A stretch of 64,000 bases of DNA, taken from Fuerstiella marisgermanici. GTDB taxonomy: Bacteria > Planctomycetota > Planctomycetia > Planctomycetales > Planctomycetaceae. Of the stretch, positions 48,828 to 55,766 are shown one piece after another. The stretch's first letter is position 1. Each line of letters opens with the position of its first letter. The notes beneath the pieces are model-generated. The model was not told the DNA's origin and ran no database searches. It saw only the letters and a list, made by a program, of their open reading frames with translations. The stretch lies in assembly GCF_001983935.1 (NCBI RefSeq), contig NZ_CP017641.1:1426001-1490000 (forward strand), written 5' to 3'. The position numbers and the translations under genes are program-made.

Positions 48828-49025
48828 ATGTCATTCAGCTCTAACGAACTTGAACAACAACTTCTGGAAACTTCCGCCGGCCAGGCCGTCTACGATTCAC
48901 TGGTCCAGGCGAACGTGAATTTGTGCACTGTGTCTGCCGAAATGGTGAAGCAAATGCTGGTCGCCGAATGTAAGTACCGCCAAACCATCGGCTACGATTC
49001 GCACTCCGCCATGGCGGTTTGCTAA
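48828..49025 (+). CDS. Small protein of unknown function (65 aa)
   Basis: 65 residues beginning MSFSSNELEQQLLETSAGQA with a good ribosome site (AAAGGA, 8-9 bp spacing) and a TAA stop. It is helical and has three cysteines (NLCTVS, ECKYR, terminal AVC). No family was recognised. The ribosome site and codon regularity make it a likely real gene; it converges on the broken H-X9-DG gene. Confidence 0.55.
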   Translation: MSFSSNELEQQLLETSAGQAVYDSLVQANVNLCTVSAEMVKQMLVAECKYRQTIGYDSHSAMAVC

Positions 49026-49035
49026 AGTGTCGCGA

Positions 49036-49599
49036 TCACCAGTCCGATAGCTCTTCGCCGCCATCAATCGACAATAACGCTCGCAGGACGCGGGCGTTGG
49101 TCGATTCGCTGACGAAACGCACAGAACCGTCAGCCAGCGCGACTTGTGCTCCGTCGCTATGATACGACGACGCGAGGCTCTCCGATCTCCCCGGCTGCGG
49201 ACCGGGGCCGTTGATGTCCATCGTTGCGGTGCTCACAGGCTGATCGCGAGGCTCCGTCCAGATGACGTTGCTGCCGCAGGCTTCCAGCACCATCAGTGTG
49301 TTTGAACTGCCGTCTTTGATCGCCGAGATCGGAATTCCGTCCGGCCCGTTGAAGGCTGTGCCCGCCCCGGTTGGTGCGAGGTAAGACGTCAGGACTCGGT
49401 CGTGCTGATCTAAGGAGCTCGGCCGACTTGGGCAAATGAAGGTCCCGTATTTTTCGTTCTGAATGGGCGAGTTGACGTCAGAATCCCAAGTGGCACTCTG
49501 GTCATACCGGTCTTCCAGTTGTGCCTTATCGTGAATCTGGCTTAGCAATAGGACCCGCCACGAAATGGGCGGATCTCCCCCCGCCGCTGCGGGGAAGTG
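49036..49599 (-). pseudogene. 3' half of a DUF1559 (H-X9-DG) gene, split by an IS3-family element
   Basis: From the IS boundary the minus-strand frame reads HFPAAAGGDPPISWRVLLLS and on to the stop at 49036. It holds the DUF1559 C-terminal hallmarks: ISWRVLLL near the start, ICPSRP, AIKDGSSNTLMVLEACG, and the H-x9-DG motif in SYHSDGAQVALADGSVRF. The matching N-terminal half is at 53510-53968. DUF1559 proteins are planctomycete secreted/pilin-like proteins, often in large families. Joining the two halves across the insertion keeps the frame, so the gene was intact before the IS arrived. Confidence 0.85.
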
Positions 49600-49624
49600 T
49601 GAGGTGGTACAGGTTTCAGGGACA
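49600..49624. repeat. IS3 terminal inverted repeat, orfB-side end
   Basis: TGAGGTGGTACAGGTTTCAG plus GGACA; perfect reverse complement of 53485-53509. Starts with TG as in IS3-family ends. Confidence 0.92.
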
Positions 49625-49634
49625 GGTCATTCTC

Positions 49635-49712
49635 TTATTTTGGGAGATTGATGATCTGTTCGAACTGAGCTGGCGACCTGTAATCGAGGCTGGAGTGTCT
49701 GCGTTCGTGAAC
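49635..49712 (-). pseudogene. 3' fragment of IS3 orfB
   Basis: The minus strand here reads VHERRHSSLDYRSPAQFEQI followed by INLPK and TAA (49635-49637), the standard C-terminus of IS3 OrfB transposases (Y-N-x-x-R-x-H-S-x-L-x-Y-x-S-P). It is in frame with the main orfB fragment ending at 52344 if the 2.6-kb nested element is removed. Confidence 0.88.
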
Positions 49713-49728
49713 GTACAACCTCACGAAC
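49703..49728. other. Left junction (att-like site) of the nested serine-recombinase element
   Basis: IS3 sequence ends at ...gttcgtgaac (49712), followed by the core GT (49713-49714) and the element. An 8-bp dyad, gttcgtga (49703-49710) and tcacgaac (49721-49728), is centred next to the core, half contributed by the IS3 target and half by the element. Two-base cores with imperfect dyads are what large serine recombinases use. Confidence 0.65.
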
Positions 49729-50089
49729 CGATACCCATGTTACCGAGGCAGTAGTTCGGTATCGATGGCACCCTTGGTTTGATCAGCCCGTCACGATTGA
49801 TCGAGCGATCGTACGTCGTGATCGCGGAGCTGTCTATTTGTGTCGTCCTGCCGACGTGACGGACGGAAAGTTTCGTGAAGTTCCGCAGTGGATGTTGAAT
49901 CAGTCTGTATGCTGCGTCATGCAGCTACGCGACGAACCCTGCGTTTCAATATCAGCACTATTGAATCTTTCAGCACTGCTGCGGGACGCCACAGCGGGCG
50001 ATGAGTTTCTGATAGATGTTCAGCATTTCCAATCTTCTCAGGGAGATGCTGATGCCACAACCCAGAACGAAACCGACAACACAGCTTGA
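49715..50089 (+). CDS. DUF5372-like small protein of the recombinase element (start unclear)
   Basis: The frame reads THVTEAVVRYRWHPWFDQPV, then RAIVRRDRGAVYLCRPADVT and WMLNQSVCCVMQLRDEPC to TAA/TGA at 50089. The R-x-H-P-W-F start and later conserved W and C residues resemble the small proteins that precede recombinases of this type. No ATG, GTG or early TTG lies in this frame inside the element before 49838; the open frame crosses the left junction into IS3 DNA. It may borrow a start from flanking DNA, use a rare start, or be decayed. Function unknown, possibly a recombination directionality or accessory factor. Confidence 0.5.
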   Translation, partial: TTSRTDTHVTEAVVRYRWHPWFDQPVTIDRAIVRRDRGAVYLCRPADVTDGKFREVPQWMLNQSVCCVMQLRDEPCVSISALLNLSALLRDATAGDEFLIDVQHFQSSQGDADATTQNETDNTA

Positions 50090-50231
50090 TCTGTTTGAAG
50101 TGAGTCCGCCCCGGCCGCGATGGAGTGATCTGCCCAGCGAGACTCGGGAAGAAGCGACCCGATATCTGGCGGAACTCGTTCGTCATCATGCTGAAAATCT
50201 CAACAGCGGAAAGGAGTCCGAAGATGAGTGA
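50052..50231 (+). CDS. Small recombinase-associated protein (59 aa)
   Basis: 59 residues from ATG 50052, which has GGGAG 6 bp upstream. The sequence contains TTQLDLFEVSPPRPRWSDLP and then TREEATRYLAELVRHHAE, the pattern (LFE/LFG ... W..LP ... R.....LA.LL) of the small middle gene in recombinase cassettes. Its stop overlaps the recombinase start by 8 bp (50224-50231), so the two are translationally coupled. Function unknown. Confidence 0.7.
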   Translation: MPQPRTKPTTQLDLFEVSPPRPRWSDLPSETREEATRYLAELVRHHAENLNSGKESEDE

Positions 50232-52308
50232 AAAGATTGAAGCCATCCATCTTCAGCGGAAAGCCGTTCTTTACATTCGTCAGTCGTCGCCGTTTCAGGT
50301 GCTTCACAACGAAGAAAGCCGCAGGCTGCAGTATGCCATGCAGCAACGGATGCGTTCACTGGGATGGAAAGACATTGAAGTCATCGATGAAGATCTGGGG
50401 CGCAGCGCGTCCGGCAGCGTTGTTCGATCGGGATTTGAACGCATGGTCGCCGATGTGTGCCTCGGGAAGATCGGGGCCGTTGCTGCACGAGAGGTGTCGC
50501 GGTTTGCTCGCAACAGTCGTGAATGGCAGCAACTGGTTGAAGTGTGTCGAGTCGTGGACACGTTATTGATCGATCAGGAAACGGTCTACGCTCCTCGCCG
50601 GAGCAATGACCGACTGTTGCTGGGACTGAAAGGAAGTTTGAACGAATACGAGCTGGACCTCCTTCGTCAGCGATCCGTAGAAGCTCGGCGTGAAAAGGCG
50701 CGCCGAGGAGAACTGATCATTTCGGCACCGGTCGGATATCTGAAAACGGGAACGACTCGAGGCAAAGATCAGCGCATTGAGAAAGACCCGAATACTCGCG
50801 TGCAACAGATGATCAATCTGGTGTTTCGCAAGTGCTTCGAACTGGGGAGTGCACGGCAAGCTTTGATGTGGCTTCTGGAAGAAGATCTGCAGATGCCGAC
50901 ACGAGACAAAGCCGGAGTCCTGAAGTGGAAGCGTCCGACATACGGGATGGTGTACCAGATCCTGACTCATCCGGTGTACGGTGGGGCGTATGCGTATGGC
51001 CGAACCGAACATCAGCCATCGTATGAAGGTGGATTCGTTGATTCAAAAACACGGCGGCGCAGTCGCGAAGAATGGATCGCATTGATTCCCGAACATCACG
51101 AAGGCTATGTATCGTGGGAGGAGTTCGAACGATTGCAGGATTTGATTTCGTCAAACAATCTGCGTTCCGGGCGAGGCGCTGCTCGAAAAGGTTCGGCACT
51201 GTTGTCGGGAATGCTGGGCTGTCAGCAATGTGGACGGCGACTGGCCGTCGCGTACAGCGGAGTCGGAGCGAAAGTGCCACGTTACTGCTGCCACCGAGGG
51301 TATCTGGACAATGGCGAAGCCAAGTGCATCGCATTCGGTGCCACGTCCGTTGACATCGCCGTTGCAGAACAGATATTCCGTGTTGTTGCTCCTGCCGCTC
51401 AAGAGGCCGCCATGCTCGCTCACCAGAAAACAACCGAACGTGACAACGAAATCCTTCAGGCACTGGAAGGGGAACTTAAGTCTGCTCGTTATGAAGCATC
51501 GCGTGCACAACGTCAATTCGATGCAGCTGACCCGGAAAATCGACTTGTCACCGAGGAACTGGAACGAAGATGGAATGCGTCGATGCAACACGTCAGCGAC
51601 GTCGAAGCACGGATCGATCAGCAGCGAAATGACAGATCTTCAATCGACGATCCTGATTTGCAGGGTCTGATGGCAGTCGTGGCTGACCTTGACGCAGTCT
51701 GGAACAATCCTGATGCTGACATTCGAATCAAGAAACGCATCGTTCGGACTCTGATCCGCGATATCGTTGCGGATGTCGACAACGACGTGAGCGAAGTCAT
51801 TCTTACAATCCACTGGGTTGGTGGTGTGCATACCGAACTGCGACTTCCCCGCCGTCGTCGCGGAAAATCGACAGCCACGACAGCCACGTCAGCAGAGGCC
51901 GTCGATGCTGTCCGGTCACTCGCACGAATCTGTTCCGACGATCTCATCGCCGGACTGCTCAACCGCAACGGGTTACCAACGGGACGAGGAAACCGGTGGA
52001 CTCGAGAGCGGGTCACATCGATGCGGAACTACCACAAGATTGCCCGCTGGACTGCACAGGCTCAATCTGATCAAGGCTGGATGAACCTAACCGACAGCGC
52101 AAAACATCTTGGCATCAGCACGCGGACACTCAGACTGGCGATTGAACGAGCCGATATCAAAGGTCAACACCCGCTTCCGGACGGACCGTGGATCATCAAT
52201 CGCAGCGAACTGGAGACGCCAGCGGCAAAGGCCGTTGTCCGGAAGGCAAAAACTCGAAACCGCAACCCCGCGGTACCAGATCCCAAACAGCAATCCCTTG
52301 AGTTTTAA
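50224..52308 (+). CDS. Large serine recombinase
   Basis: 694 residues from ATG 50224. The resolvase N-terminal domain (~1-150) has the catalytic serine in LYIRQSSPFQVLHNEESRRL and downstream arginines in REVSRFARNSREWQQL; the recombinase domain follows (VRKC..., GVLKWKRPTYGMVYQILTHP), then a zinc beta-ribbon (GCQQCGRRLAVAY ... YCCHRGYLDNGEAKC) and a coiled-coil linker (~410-480). The C-terminus holds a helix-turn-helix (HLGISTRTLRLAIERADIKG). It should catalyse insertion and excision at 2-bp core sites; the GT at both element ends is the expected product. It seems intact. Confidence 0.93.
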   Translation: MSEKIEAIHLQRKAVLYIRQSSPFQVLHNEESRRLQYAMQQRMRSLGWKDIEVIDEDLGRSASGSVVRSGFERMVADVCLGKIGAVAAREVSRFARNSREWQQLVEVCRVVDTLLIDQETVYAPRRSNDRLLLGLKGSLNEYELDLLRQRSVEARREKARRGELIISAPVGYLKTGTTRGKDQRIEKDPNTRVQQMINLVFRKCFELGSARQALMWLLEEDLQMPTRDKAGVLKWKRPTYGMVYQILTHPVYGGAYAYGRTEHQPSYEGGFVDSKTRRRSREEWIALIPEHHEGYVSWEEFERLQDLISSNNLRSGRGAARKGSALLSGMLGCQQCGRRLAVAYSGVGAKVPRYCCHRGYLDNGEAKCIAFGATSVDIAVAEQIFRVVAPAAQEAAMLAHQKTTERDNEILQALEGELKSARYEASRAQRQFDAADPENRLVTEELERRWNASMQHVSDVEARIDQQRNDRSSIDDPDLQGLMAVVADLDAVWNNPDADIRIKKRIVRTLIRDIVADVDNDVSEVILTIHWVGGVHTELRLPRRRRGKSTATTATSAEAVDAVRSLARICSDDLIAGLLNRNGLPTGRGNRWTRERVTSMRNYHKIARWTAQAQSDQGWMNLTDSAKHLGISTRTLRLAIERADIKGQHPLPDGPWIINRSELETPAAKAVVRKAKTRNRNPAVPDPKQQSLEF

Positions 52309-52341
52309 CTCAAATAGAACAAAGGTGCATAATGAAACACA

Positions 52342-52343
52342 GT
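52342..52343. other. Right junction core (GT) of the recombinase element
   Basis: Element sequence ...aatgaaacaca ends at GT (52342-52343) and IS3 orfB resumes at tgtagtagcgg. The same GT is at 49713-49714. No obvious dyad flanks this side. Confidence 0.65.
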
Positions 52344-53091
52344 TGTAGTAGCGGACGTATTTTGACATCTCTCTTCTTGCCTCTGCCTTGCTTTGGTAAT
52401 CGGTCATTTCGAGTTCGTTCTTGATCGTTCCGAAGCAGCTTTCCATGGATGCGTTGTCATAACAGTTGTCAGCACGGCTCATGCTTTGTGTGATTGCTGC
52501 CCGACGAAGAATTGATCGGTATTCATTGCCAGCGTACTGGCCGCCTCGATCCGTGTGGTGAATCAATCCAACGTCAGGCTGTCGTTCTTTGATGCTCGAA
52601 CGCAGTGCTTTGAGGACCAGCTGTTCCGTCATGTTGTTATCCAGATGCCAACCAACGATCCGCCGGGAAAACAGATCCATCAGCATCGCCATGTAGCAAA
52701 ACGTCCCGTCAGTCAGCGGGATGTAGGTAATGTCTCCAACCCAAATTTGATTGATCGTTGTTGGGGCGTCCGCATCGAGCAACAGGTTCGGCGAATAGCC
52801 CAGTCGATGACGGCTGTCTGTCGTTTTTGGAACGAACGACTTCGGCTGAATTGCCTTTAATTTAAGGGCTTTCATGACATTCGAGACCTTCCTGCGATCA
52901 CAGAGAAGTCCCATTTCCTTGAGGTCTTCGGCAATGCGACGAGCCCCGTAGCGGCGGCGGTGACGCTTAAAGATGACTCTTATCAACGGAGCCAGTTGAG
53001 CATCCTGTTCTTCAAAGATCGTGGGCTCAGCAGTCTGCCAGGCATAAAACGAAGTTCGGTTCACACCGAGATGACGACAGACTTCGGCCAC
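52344..53091 (-). pseudogene. 5' part of IS3 orfB transposase, truncated by the recombinase element
   Basis: From GTG 53091 the minus strand encodes ~249 residues of OrfB: VCRHLGVNRTSFYAW, RRRYGARRIAEDL, and the DDE catalytic residues in WVGDITYIPL, HHTDRGGQYA and DNASMESCFGTIK. It ends at SKYVRYYN, where element DNA begins; continued reading gives unrelated residues to a stop at 52087. It is normally made as an OrfA-OrfB fusion by -1 frameshifting (slippery site 53172-53178). The loss of the last 25 residues probably inactivates it. Confidence 0.9.
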
Positions 53092-53141
53092 GTTTCCATG
53101 ACCTTCCTGAACAATCGCTTCAACGGCCGCATAGACGTCAG

Positions 53142-53444
53142 CTATTCGTTGCGGCCGAAAATAGCCAACGCTTTTTTTAGTATGTCCCTCTCACGTTCGA
53201 CACGCCGCAGATCGGCTTCGAGGTCCTTGACCTTAGCCTCCAAAGAGCTTGCCACTGGACCACTTTGTTCCAGCTGCTCCTGTTTCCAGCGATACAAAAC
53301 GTTGACGTTTGAAATGCCCAACCGGTCCACAACCTGAGGAGCCGTGTACCCATCCAGAAGCAGCTGCACGGCTTCTTCTTTGAACTCATCCGTGTACTGA
53401 CGGCGAGACGATTTCTTGACTGATGTTTTTTTCTTCCGAGACAT
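53142..53444 (-). CDS. IS3-family transposase OrfA
   Basis: 100 residues: N-terminal helix-turn-helix (YTDEFKEEAVQLLLDGYTAP ... DRLGISNVNVLYRWKQ) and a leucine-zipper-like coiled coil (LEAKVKDLEADLRRVERERD) ending ILKKALAIFGRNE, standard for IS3 OrfA. It binds the IS ends and forms the N-terminal part of the OrfAB fusion transposase. The gene is intact and starts 41 bp from the right inverted repeat. With orfB split, transposition would need help from another copy. Confidence 0.93.
   Translation of the reverse strand: MSRKKKTSVKKSSRRQYTDEFKEEAVQLLLDGYTAPQVVDRLGISNVNVLYRWKQEQLEQSGPVASSLEAKVKDLEADLRRVERERDILKKALAIFGRNE
53172..53178 (-). other. A7 slippery sequence for -1 frameshifting
   Basis: On the minus strand CTAAAAAAAGCG occurs near the end of orfA. 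Slipping back one base continues as KKSVGYFRPQRIADVYAAVE directly into the orfB frame. This is the usual IS3-family way to make the OrfAB fusion. Confidence 0.75.
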
Positions 53445-53484
53445 CCTGAGGTCCTTTCTACGGACTCAGAATAAGAGATTCACG

Positions 53485-53509
53485 TGTCCCTGAAACCTGT
53501 ACCACCTCA
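53485..53509. repeat. IS3 terminal inverted repeat, orfA-side end
   Basis: TGTCCCTGAAACCTGTACCA plus CCTCA; perfect reverse complement of 49600-49624. Confidence 0.92.
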
Positions 53510-53968
53510 GGGTTTGTTTGCGTCGTGGTACTTGTGGAATCCGAGTGCAATCTGTTTCAGGTTGTATTTGCACTGAGTACGTCTTGCGGGTTCACGAGCT
53601 CCTTCGGTGGTTGCAATTGTCAAACCAACAATTGTGACCAGAAGGGTCGCCCAGCCACCGATAGCGCCGACGACCACACCTTTGCCGTATCCACGTTCGC
53701 GATAGACGGCTCGGATATGAAGGCACACGGACGATGGCAAAGCAATCAGCAGGAACGCGAATGTGAAGCTGTCGATTCTTATCAGGCCGACTGGGGACAA
53801 GGTCATGACCACGATTATAAGGAACACCCCGGTGACTACAGCGAACGTGAATTCCCAGAGTACGGCCCACCCTGCCCGAAAAATCGCAATCGATACGGCA
53901 ACGGTAATCGCGAACAAGAACATAAGCAGTGGCCACCAGTTGGTCTGGTCGGGAGGAAATTCATACAT
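53510..53968 (-). pseudogene. 5' half of the split DUF1559 gene, with an unusual multi-helix N-terminus
   Basis: Starts at ATG 53966-53968 with GAGGGGA upstream and is open for ~153 codons to the IS end, where the inverted repeat supplies a stop (53507). It encodes four predicted helices (WWPLLMFLFAITVAVSIAIF; WEFTFAVVTGVFLIIVVM; SFTFAFLLIALPSSVCL; GGWATLLVTIVGLTIA) followed by RRTQCKYNLKQIALGFHKYH, the DUF1559 N-terminal motif. Most DUF1559 proteins have one pilin-like helix instead. The other half is at 49036-49599. Truncated, so presumably non-functional. Confidence 0.82.
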
Positions 53969-54195: not shown

Positions 54196-55766
54196 GTAGC
54201 TGTCCATTTCAGCTTGGAGACTGGTCTTTTTCTGTCGGTTAGATTTTGATACGACAGGTGGATGGACACGGATGTCAGTCAGATCATCGCTGTGGAAGTG
54301 AAGCAGCTTGTGCTTAGCCTGCAGCGTGAGGTTGCGGAGCTGCGGGACGAGAACCGGCGGCTGCGTGATCGGATTGAAGAGCTCGAAGGTAAGAACCCCA
54401 CAGAGCGACTCGACGAGGCGTTTTCGGTGACGGCGGAAGAGAGACGCCGCGCTGAAACGGGCCGCCGAAAAGGTCGCAAAAAACAATCCTCGGCGCGTCG
54501 CGGTCGTCGCACAACCGAGCAGAAAGCGGACAACGCCGAACGACGCGAACTCATTCTGCCGGAAGGTTACAACGTCGCAGAGTGCCGTTTCGTTCGGGAA
54601 CGTTTCGTCTGGAGAGTGATCAACGGCCAAGCCGTGCAGGTCGTCTATGAAATCTATCACGGCCCCAACGGCGAGAAATCCGAAATTCCGGGCGTGTGGC
54701 CGCGGTCCGAATTCGGCATTGAAGTTCATATCGCGCTGGCTCGCATTGTGACCATCACGGGACTGTCGATCGACAAGACGTGTGCATTGATTGAATTCTT
54801 CTGGAATCTGCCGCTCGGCAAATCCCAGGCGGACGCTCTGTTGAATCAACTGGCACGGCGTTGGGAACAGGAATTCGAATCTCTGTGTGACCTGATGGCG
54901 TTCAGTGCGATTGTGCATGCAGACGAAACCAGTTGGAGTATCAACAGCGTGTGGGCTTTTTTGTCGGAGAAGGCGCGCGTGCTGATCTTCGGATGCCGCA
55001 AAGACGGCGACACACTGGCTCAGATCCTGTCGAAAGAATTGTTTGGAGGCGTGCTTGTTTCGGACGATGCGGCCGTGTACCGAGGTTTCAGTCACGCACA
55101 GAAATGCTGGGCTCACCTGCTGCGGAAGGCCATCCGTCTGACGCTGCTGAAGCCGGACAACGAAGAGTACCAGCGACTGCTCGACGGCCTGCTGGAAATT
55201 TTCTACGCGGCCAAACGCCACGCCGCCGATGGTCGTCTTGGCGATGCCGGTCGTGCGGCGAAGGTCGATGAACTTGATAACACGCTGGCGGCTCTGCTGG
55301 TGCGTTACTGCGCCGAGGATTCCGATGTTCGGGCGGCCGACTTCGGCAAGGATTTTGACAACCTGGTCTCAGAACTGATTCGGCTGATGACGGAAGAGGA
55401 GTTGTTTTGTTTTGTGACAAGCCCGGCCGCGCCAGCAACGAACAACGAAGCGGAACGCAGTCTTCGCGGCGCGGCCATGGACCGTCGCACAGGTCGAACG
55501 AGCAAAACATCGAAGGGAGCCCGTCGCCGCAGCATTCTTACAAGCGTCCTGGAATCGCTGAATCTCCATCTGAAAACACCAACGCTCAGTTCCGTGGTGG
55601 CCGAGGTCATGACGTGGCAGCAGGATGGATTCAGTCTGTTTGATCGACTGAAACTTGAAGTCGGCCTGACCTCCGCGCCGCCCGGTCAGTCGCGACTGTC
55701 CAAACTCGTCCCCGCCAACTGAACACCACACCTCACGCTGCGCACCACGCGGAAATGGACAGCTAC
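54196..55766 (+). mobile_element. IS66-family element, minimal (TnpC only)
   Basis: 1571 bp bounded by 15-bp inverted repeats gtagctgtccatttc (54196-54210) and gaaatggacagctac (55752-55766). It encodes one transposase and none of the small tnpA/tnpB genes of typical IS66. The direct repeat CGCTTAT flanks both ends (7 bp exact, 8 bp with one mismatch), matching the 8-bp duplications of IS66. It sits in the codon-aligned gap of an IS630 transposase gene. Confidence 0.85.
54262..55722 (+). CDS. IS66-family transposase (TnpC)
   Basis: 486 residues. Order: N-terminal leucine-zipper coiled coil (LVLSLQREVAELRDENRRLRDRI), a basic low-complexity linker (RRKGRKKQSSARRGRRT), and the IS66 DDE domain with Asp in HADETSW, Asp in VSDDAAVYRGF and Glu in NNEAERSLRG. 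SIDKTCALIEFFWNLPLG and KCWAHLLRKA are family blocks. It catalyses cut-and-paste or copy transposition. The gene appears intact. Confidence 0.93.
   Translation: MDTDVSQIIAVEVKQLVLSLQREVAELRDENRRLRDRIEELEGKNPTERLDEAFSVTAEERRRAETGRRKGRKKQSSARRGRRTTEQKADNAERRELILPEGYNVAECRFVRERFVWRVINGQAVQVVYEIYHGPNGEKSEIPGVWPRSEFGIEVHIALARIVTITGLSIDKTCALIEFFWNLPLGKSQADALLNQLARRWEQEFESLCDLMAFSAIVHADETSWSINSVWAFLSEKARVLIFGCRKDGDTLAQILSKELFGGVLVSDDAAVYRGFSHAQKCWAHLLRKAIRLTLLKPDNEEYQRLLDGLLEIFYAAKRHAADGRLGDAGRAAKVDELDNTLAALLVRYCAEDSDVRAADFGKDFDNLVSELIRLMTEEELFCFVTSPAAPATNNEAERSLRGAAMDRRTGRTSKTSKGARRRSILTSVLESLNLHLKTPTLSSVVAEVMTWQQDGFSLFDRLKLEVGLTSAPPGQSRLSKLVPAN

Follow-up and report, generated by a model that had tools for sequence, protein, structure and literature searches.

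An insertion sequence (IS) of the IS3 family lies within a DUF1559 gene of Fuerstiella marisgermanici, and inside its transposase gene sits a second element that encodes a large serine recombinase (LSR). We concluded from sequence comparisons that this inner element is very probably a minimal site-specific mobile element, with its attachment site attB in a conserved coding motif of transposases, and that it probably lives as a parasite of insertion sequences. The window, that is, the whole stretch of 64,000 nucleotides that was analysed, corresponds to bases 1426001-1490000 of a genome of 8.92 Mb in one contig. In window coordinates, the inner element comprises the following:

49714-52345, + strand: LSR element, 2632 bp including one TA core, delimited by filled versus empty sites (core TA at 49714-49715 and 52346-52347)
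49715-50089, + strand: body of open reading frame (ORF) 1, which encodes the YRWHPWF... protein; the frame is open as far as the left end and lacks its start codon in the integrated state (42 aligned homologues)
50049-50231, + strand: ORF2, a small QLDLF-type protein adjoining the recombinase; no family
50224-52308, + strand: large serine recombinase, 694 amino acids (PF00239, PF07508)
52332-52345, + strand: ORF1 start and first codons (ATG AAA CAC AGT TG), contiguous with the ORF1 body in the circle only

The limits of the element were set by empty sites. The genome holds ten copies of the IS, eight of them intact (1277-1278 bp) and two with the inner element aboard (3910 bp). All eight intact copies read GTGAAC GTA GTAGCGG, and the filled copies read GTGAACGTACAACC...CACAGTTGTAGTAGCGG. 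The uninterrupted IS3 copies to which an earlier, sequence-only reading of the window had pointed are therefore present in the same genome, each with its empty site. The same reading had proposed that excision of the inner element, leaving one GT behind, would restore the second IS3 frame, orfB. The frame is indeed restored; the retained GT did not stand, as the repeat at the window's inner junction is GTA and comparison of copies puts the switch in TA. Because the third base of the tyrosine codon comes from the target, and because the base after TA varies at the right junction as does the target base before TA, the exchange is placed in the TA itself. A GT core was rejected on copies with A before the TA (a TAT codon), among them loci L014, L024, L065, L070, L071 and others.

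The genome contains seven copies of the LSR element, and all seven split a transposase at the tyrosine codon of a C-terminal YN-x-x-RPH region. Several transposase types were hit, and five of the seven copies sit in transposases other than the IS3; the window's IS3 carries Y-V-H-E-R-R-H as its variant of the N-x-x-RPH motif. When the flanks were joined minus one core, six of the seven sites yielded transposase ORFs of 301-384 amino acids. At the seventh, L013, the joined flanks gave no ORF over 120 amino acids, and the site reads LVY followed by YNKHRV; a decayed transposase, related to that of L012 (71 amino acids at 44%, E 1e-10), makes up its right flank as far as the junction. The exact consensus TAYAAYN6CGNCCNCAY occurs at eight places in the genome, all in one transposase family (six whole and two occupied copies), and a reversed-pattern control occurs once. 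This family is a second target transposase, and its six whole copies provide additional empty sites.

Some of the seven copies differ in ways that bear on their history. L011 (at 1219997) and L014 (at 2047044) carry swapped halves of two different transposases, and an uninterrupted relative, L052, spans the second pair; we took the swap as a sign of past recombination between element copies. L010 and L011 have 44 common differences clustered in element alignment columns 891-1980, within one block of the recombinase gene, and this shared block is a mosaic from a diverged relative. A 9-bp in-frame repeat in the recombinase gene, near window position 51880, is present in one, two or three units among the seven copies (691, 694 and 697 amino acids).

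The window's recombinase has an N-terminal resolvase catalytic domain (PF00239, 68.0 bits) followed by a recombinase domain (PF07508, 68.6 bits); a zinc ribbon (PF13408) scored 24.1 bits, just under the cut-off of 25.3. Its four matches among PDB sequences were all serine recombinases or resolvase-family proteins. ORF2 matched no Pfam or NCBIfam family. In a phage search, 64 records matched weakly, none over 80% of the query, and the ten listed were 21-27% identical. An eighth, distant recombinase in the same genome (L151, 8078843-8080741) has 33% identity.

We then surveyed junctions among relatives. A profile search of genome contigs with an alignment of five recombinase sequences returned at least 593 stretches, 170 of which encoded relatives; the best 80 of these 170 were kept, and they came from rhizobia, Burkholderiaceae, Planctomycetes, Acidobacteria, Verrucomicrobia and others. 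Further loci were drawn from genome searches of the order (170), class (397) and phylum (392), which are overlapping sets. The resulting near clade comprised 87 loci, namely our seven copies and 80 others whose recombinases are 47-77% identical. Junctions were excluded where the end was not found or the contig ended (21/87 left, 18/87 right). Duplicate places were kept in the counts: L064 equals L054, L115 equals L071, L009 and the window have near flanks alike, and L069/L025 and L116/L082 agree on one side.

Left junctions fell at the target's tyrosine codon in 63 of the 66 readable cases: 60 showed the downstream half of the motif in antisense, and in three (L094, L112, L123) an IS3 transposase ran the other way, with its upstream half at the junction. 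By a loose pattern, the 69 readable right junctions comprised 56 upstream halves, seven downstream halves in sense and six others; among these six, L068 (by IS481 and IS3 models) and L013 proved to be transposases, and L072, L083, L117 and L130 stayed unmatched. In most elements whose right end was found, the core lies about 30 nucleotides past the last sense codon of the recombinase. For flank ORFs of at least 60 amino acids (n = 48), 45 matched the IS3 transposase model (E <= 0.001), 39 rve_3 and 37 rve; the remainder were one DNA polymerase III alpha subunit and two without an IS3 match. Single scans of ten of these 48 ORFs ended in nine cases at or within two residues of position 350/369 (IS3) or 265/284 (IS481), the exception being L123, for which the best stretch was the N-terminal one. 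The match of the window's flank ORF ends at IS3 model position 350.

Two further kinds of locus were seen in this survey. L072 is a copy within a DNA polymerase III alpha gene of the error-prone polymerase type, an off-target or relaxed site. In L075, L078 and L128 both flanks are downstream transposase halves running in opposite directions, as after inversion between two copies. Element ends were not found around distant recombinases with 33-39% identity (L027-L045, L059-L061 and the copy at 8078843 in our genome), and a search of their flanks for YN-type motifs gave matches for L036, L037 and L038 only.

To describe the site we aligned 63 downstream half-sites on the TA, which is constant there by construction. 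The consensus was TA[CT]AA[CT]N6CGNCCNCA[CT]. Information was 1.2-1.9 bits at the first two positions of the codons for Asn, Arg, Pro and His, and 0.01-0.15 bit at free third codon positions. The third base of the tyrosine codon, which derives from the target at the left junction, was C in 52/63 and T in 11/63. Most of the conservation at the site is that of the protein motif; the key point is that the enzyme accepts variation. Arm spacing in attP and attB gave best shifts of 6 and 4, with no clear match to the 5 bp of LSRs, and was not used. The split lies after the rve domain; the rve core of the host transposase is retained and the C-terminus lost. Counted from the tyrosine, the antisense read-through tail into the element is at most 19 residues in 54/70 elements and 86 residues in our seven copies.

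A sister clade of recombinases has a different target. It comprised 11 loci: L131, L135 and L137-L141, whose recombinases are 40-43% identical to that of the window, and four plasmid loci (five were taken from 178 matching records and L158 was excluded). Nine right flanks were long enough to read; eight matched the IS66 transposase (PF03050) as far as Pfam position 266-270 of 284, and L157, the ninth, matched IS66 TnpB. The left flanks continued the IS66 transposase, with an RKNxLFAGS-type motif or a variant of it, in 8/11 loci (L131, L135, L137, L138, L139, L141, L155, L156); in the left flanks of the other three of the 11 (L140, L154, L157) no such continuation was found. In an unrooted recombinase tree of 60 rows, 34 near-clade rows, L072, L083 and L130 included, were set apart from the rest by a branch (96/86; present in 96% of bootstrap trees), and eight IS66 rows fell together with L140 in a nine-row group (100/100). 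Targets follow the recombinase tree.

The element's first gene is cut by integration. Alignment of ORF1 with 42 homologues revealed a YxWHPWxGR core, nearly invariant residues T1 and H8, and conservation up to the element's left end; the first internal start codon lies 12-60 codons inward from that end. In the reconstructed circle the right end gave ORF1 an in-frame ATG or GTG and at least 60 open codons in 63/63 elements. The other two frames passed this test in 3/63 and 0/63, and random 60-mers from the recombinase gene passed in 37%; the test is independent of where the recombinase stops. Of the 57 integrated copies that had enough flank, 27, including the window's, lack an in-frame start codon ahead of ORF1. 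ORF1 had no Pfam match, no credible NCBIfam match (the best was weak, E 0.12) and none among PDB sequences. Its AlphaFold model had a mean predicted local distance difference test score (pLDDT) of 79 and was confident over about 85 residues.

These results suggest how the element may work. With a large serine recombinase, two small ORFs and an attachment site as its contents, it would have as its attB the DNA for the YN-x-x-RPH region conserved at the C-terminus of DDE transposases of the IS3/IS481 type. A circular form, whose attP is near-symmetric around TA, would be joined by the recombinase to the transposase gene within the tyrosine codon, at its TA. As the enzyme would require little at third codon positions, it could act on many families of transposase. 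The start codon of ORF1 would come from the right end in the circle; integration would sever the gene from that start, so that the circle should be the main source of ORF1. The host transposase would retain its rve core and lose its C-terminus, and transposase supplied by intact IS copies may mobilise the element when it sits within an IS whose ends are intact. The target position, the junctions, the empty sites and the in-frame rebuilding of ORF1 can be read directly in the sequences. Exchange between attP and attB by this enzyme, the circular intermediate, expression of ORF1 limited to the circle, and hitch-hiking are the steps we infer from these layouts.

A broader picture, which we hold to be about equally likely to be right or wrong, is that of a parasite of parasites. 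Each clade would read its own transposase motif (YN-x-x-RPH in IS3/IS481, the ERAxRP/LFAGSD region in IS66), track IS elements across phyla, truncate them while sparing the catalytic core, and ride on intact copies. ORF1 would act as a switch between the two states: complete in the circle, headless after integration.

Several observations weigh against the main reading. Junctions were unreadable at 21/87 left and 18/87 right ends of the near clade, and many of its loci are related, so the counts are not independent. On the left side, three junctions (L072, L083, L130) are unclear or not in transposases. With a palindromic TA core both orientations should be possible, yet nearly all copies show one. 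Concerning ORF1, the target could supply an in-frame start codon in 30/57 integrated copies, and 60 target bases put in place of the right end passed the circle test in 23, 26 and 2 of 58 (ORF1 frame, next and third). Part of the right end is the attP arm and itself holds an ATG, with the predicted binding site and the start codon overlapping; because of this double role, conservation of the start-codon region has two possible causes. Foldseek searches with the ORF1 model gave only weak Tudor/chromo-domain-like and other matches, none at E <= 0.001.

Could the common site reflect survival instead of targeting? A recombinase that inserts widely would appear confined to IS genes if only insertions in such dispensable genes survived. 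Transposase genes are dispensable as a matter of general knowledge, and 3/66 left junctions are elsewhere or unclear. However, survival in IS elements would scatter insertions along the transposase, and what we observed was one codon and one nucleotide motif across many families; the IS66 clade, moreover, has another single common site. We consider such a filter very improbable. Scarcely credible is the proposal that these IS elements carry the recombinase as an accessory gene of their own, with no separate mobile element involved. The two composites in this genome do hold the same element within the same IS, but the empty sites already contradict it: eight of the ten IS copies are intact without the element, five element copies sit in other transposases, and relatives of the element occur across several phyla, within different transposases. 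The flank swaps and inverted copies might have come about without the recombinase, through homologous recombination among copies of the element or the IS; this is a tentative possibility, and both the swapped transposase halves of L011 and L014 and the paired downstream halves of L075, L078 and L128 would fit it. It covers the rearranged copies only, and not the common target site of the other insertions.

The sequence-only reading had described the locus as three-level nesting, with a recombinase element inside an IS3 inside a DUF1559 gene, and these layers and both restored frames hold. The outer features are as follows:

49036-49599, - strand: C-terminal half of the DUF1559 gene (PF07596 positions 62-267; TIGR04294 H-X9-DG)
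49600-53509, no strand assigned: IS3-family element with the inner element aboard, 3910 bp, with identical 25-bp inverted repeats
49636-49713, - strand: last codons of IS3 orfB (VHERRHSSLDYRSPAQFEQIINLPK), from the joined-flank ORF
52348-53091, - strand: IS3 orfB up to the split tyrosine codon (PF00665; NF033516 to model position 350 of 369)
53142-53444, - strand: IS3 orfA (PF01527 and NF033516)
53510-53968, - strand: N-terminal half of the DUF1559 (H-X9-DG) gene (Pfam PF07596 positions 3-29)

Taken separately, the DUF1559 halves scored 54.1 and 38.1 bits. Joined, they gave a single PF07596 match of 119.9 bits over positions 3-267 of 268, which bears out the claim that removal of the IS restores the DUF1559 frame. 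For this join one copy of an imperfect GTG/GGG duplication was taken out; a direct join is likewise in frame. The perfect ends attributed to the IS were also confirmed, the inverted repeats at 49600-49624 and 53485-53509 being identical over 25 bp, and the outer element has the features of its family: orfA and orfB that match IS3 models, a DDE integrase core and terminal inverted repeats. Its target duplication is imperfect, with one mismatch in 3 bp (GTG at 49597-49599, GGG at 53510-53512); among the other nine copies in the genome the duplication is perfect in six and not in three. An IS66-type transposase ORF (PF03050, 71 bits) adjoins the DUF1559 gene at window positions 54262-55722, and the region thus gathers mobile elements. 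Directly before the DUF1559 gene, at 48828-49025 on the + strand, lies a 65-amino-acid ORF with no Pfam family.

The order in which these layers arrived is a separate matter. The nesting had been taken as a rare chance layering from which the order of events could be read as fixed. Neither point survived: the nesting of the element in the IS follows from its site-specific targeting, and the order is not fixed because the composite, an IS3 with the LSR element inside, is present twice in the genome. The second copy (L009, at 8630477) lies between different flanks, with a perfect duplication of GGA; over 2632 bp its inner element is identical to that of the window. Both inner elements also have the 9-bp repeat in the same number, two, and the same base at one left-end position, and none of the other five copies has either. 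A history that ran strictly from DUF1559 gene to IS3 to recombinase element is consistent with the nesting and the correct frames. The IS backgrounds of the two composites differ too, as expected if the element entered twice: at two of five variable positions in the IS backbones, the window differs from L009 and matches the intact copy L019. As the inner element of the second composite is identical, however, IS and element may have arrived together, and we regard the strict order as unlikely. These comparisons leave two histories: a composite moved and later underwent conversion, or one element variant was inserted at the same site of two IS copies; movement of the composite as a unit is neither shown nor excluded. 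An assembly error, which had been named as a way to refute the nesting, is unlikely because the genome is a single contig and the same filled site recurs at a second place with other flanks.

If this account is correct, it offers a molecular rule for recombinase elements found within insertion sequences, namely that they land in the stretch of the transposase gene which is hard for the IS to alter. It suggests a natural brake on the spread of IS elements, a source of chimeric transposase loci and inversions, and a set of recombinases with long, wobble-tolerant targets.

The LSR element is of a known kind; its target strategy and its circle-dependent gene we could not find described in open-access papers. 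A description of a transposase-targeting LSR family was not found in open-access papers in PMC, a scope that leaves subscription journals and ISfinder outside. An LSR survey (Durrant et al. 2022, PMC10083194), in the sections drawn on here, reports multi-targeting and site-specific LSRs, with targets inferred from junctions, and names a TndX-like subfamily. The targets given in those sections include magnesium chelatase, prolyl isomerase and competence genes, and distant LSRs can share a conserved coding site. Our element resembles these LSRs in its resolvase and recombinase domains and in a conserved coding site common to distant LSRs, as for prolyl isomerase and magnesium chelatase. It departs from the examples in those sections, which name no transposase target, in that it aims at a protein motif shared by many families of transposase. 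Like IS607-type elements, it is small, would be moved by a serine recombinase and lacks terminal inverted repeats. IS607 enzymes have an inverted domain order and minimal target specificity; in our recombinase the catalytic domain comes first and the target is strict; a small serine transposase with an N-terminal DNA-binding domain marks the IS607 type, and our enzyme has 694 amino acids. XisF of the cyanobacterial fdxN element is the best NCBIfam model for the recombinase and likewise concerns an LSR element inside a gene, but the score of 89.4 bits is far under the family cut-off of 375. Excision of the fdxN element is developmental, and its target is not known to be a transposase.

The TnpX/TndX transposons (Tn4451, Tn5397) share with our element an LSR as transposase, a circle (inferred here), a 2-bp core and several targets; they are larger and carry cargo, and we know of no specificity among them for a transposase motif. 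Circles of IS110/IS1111 and IS3 elements form promoters at their junctions, so that a functional unit is rebuilt only in the circle. In contrast, what the circle of our element would rebuild is the start and first codons of a protein gene, and it would do so in an element of the serine recombinase type.

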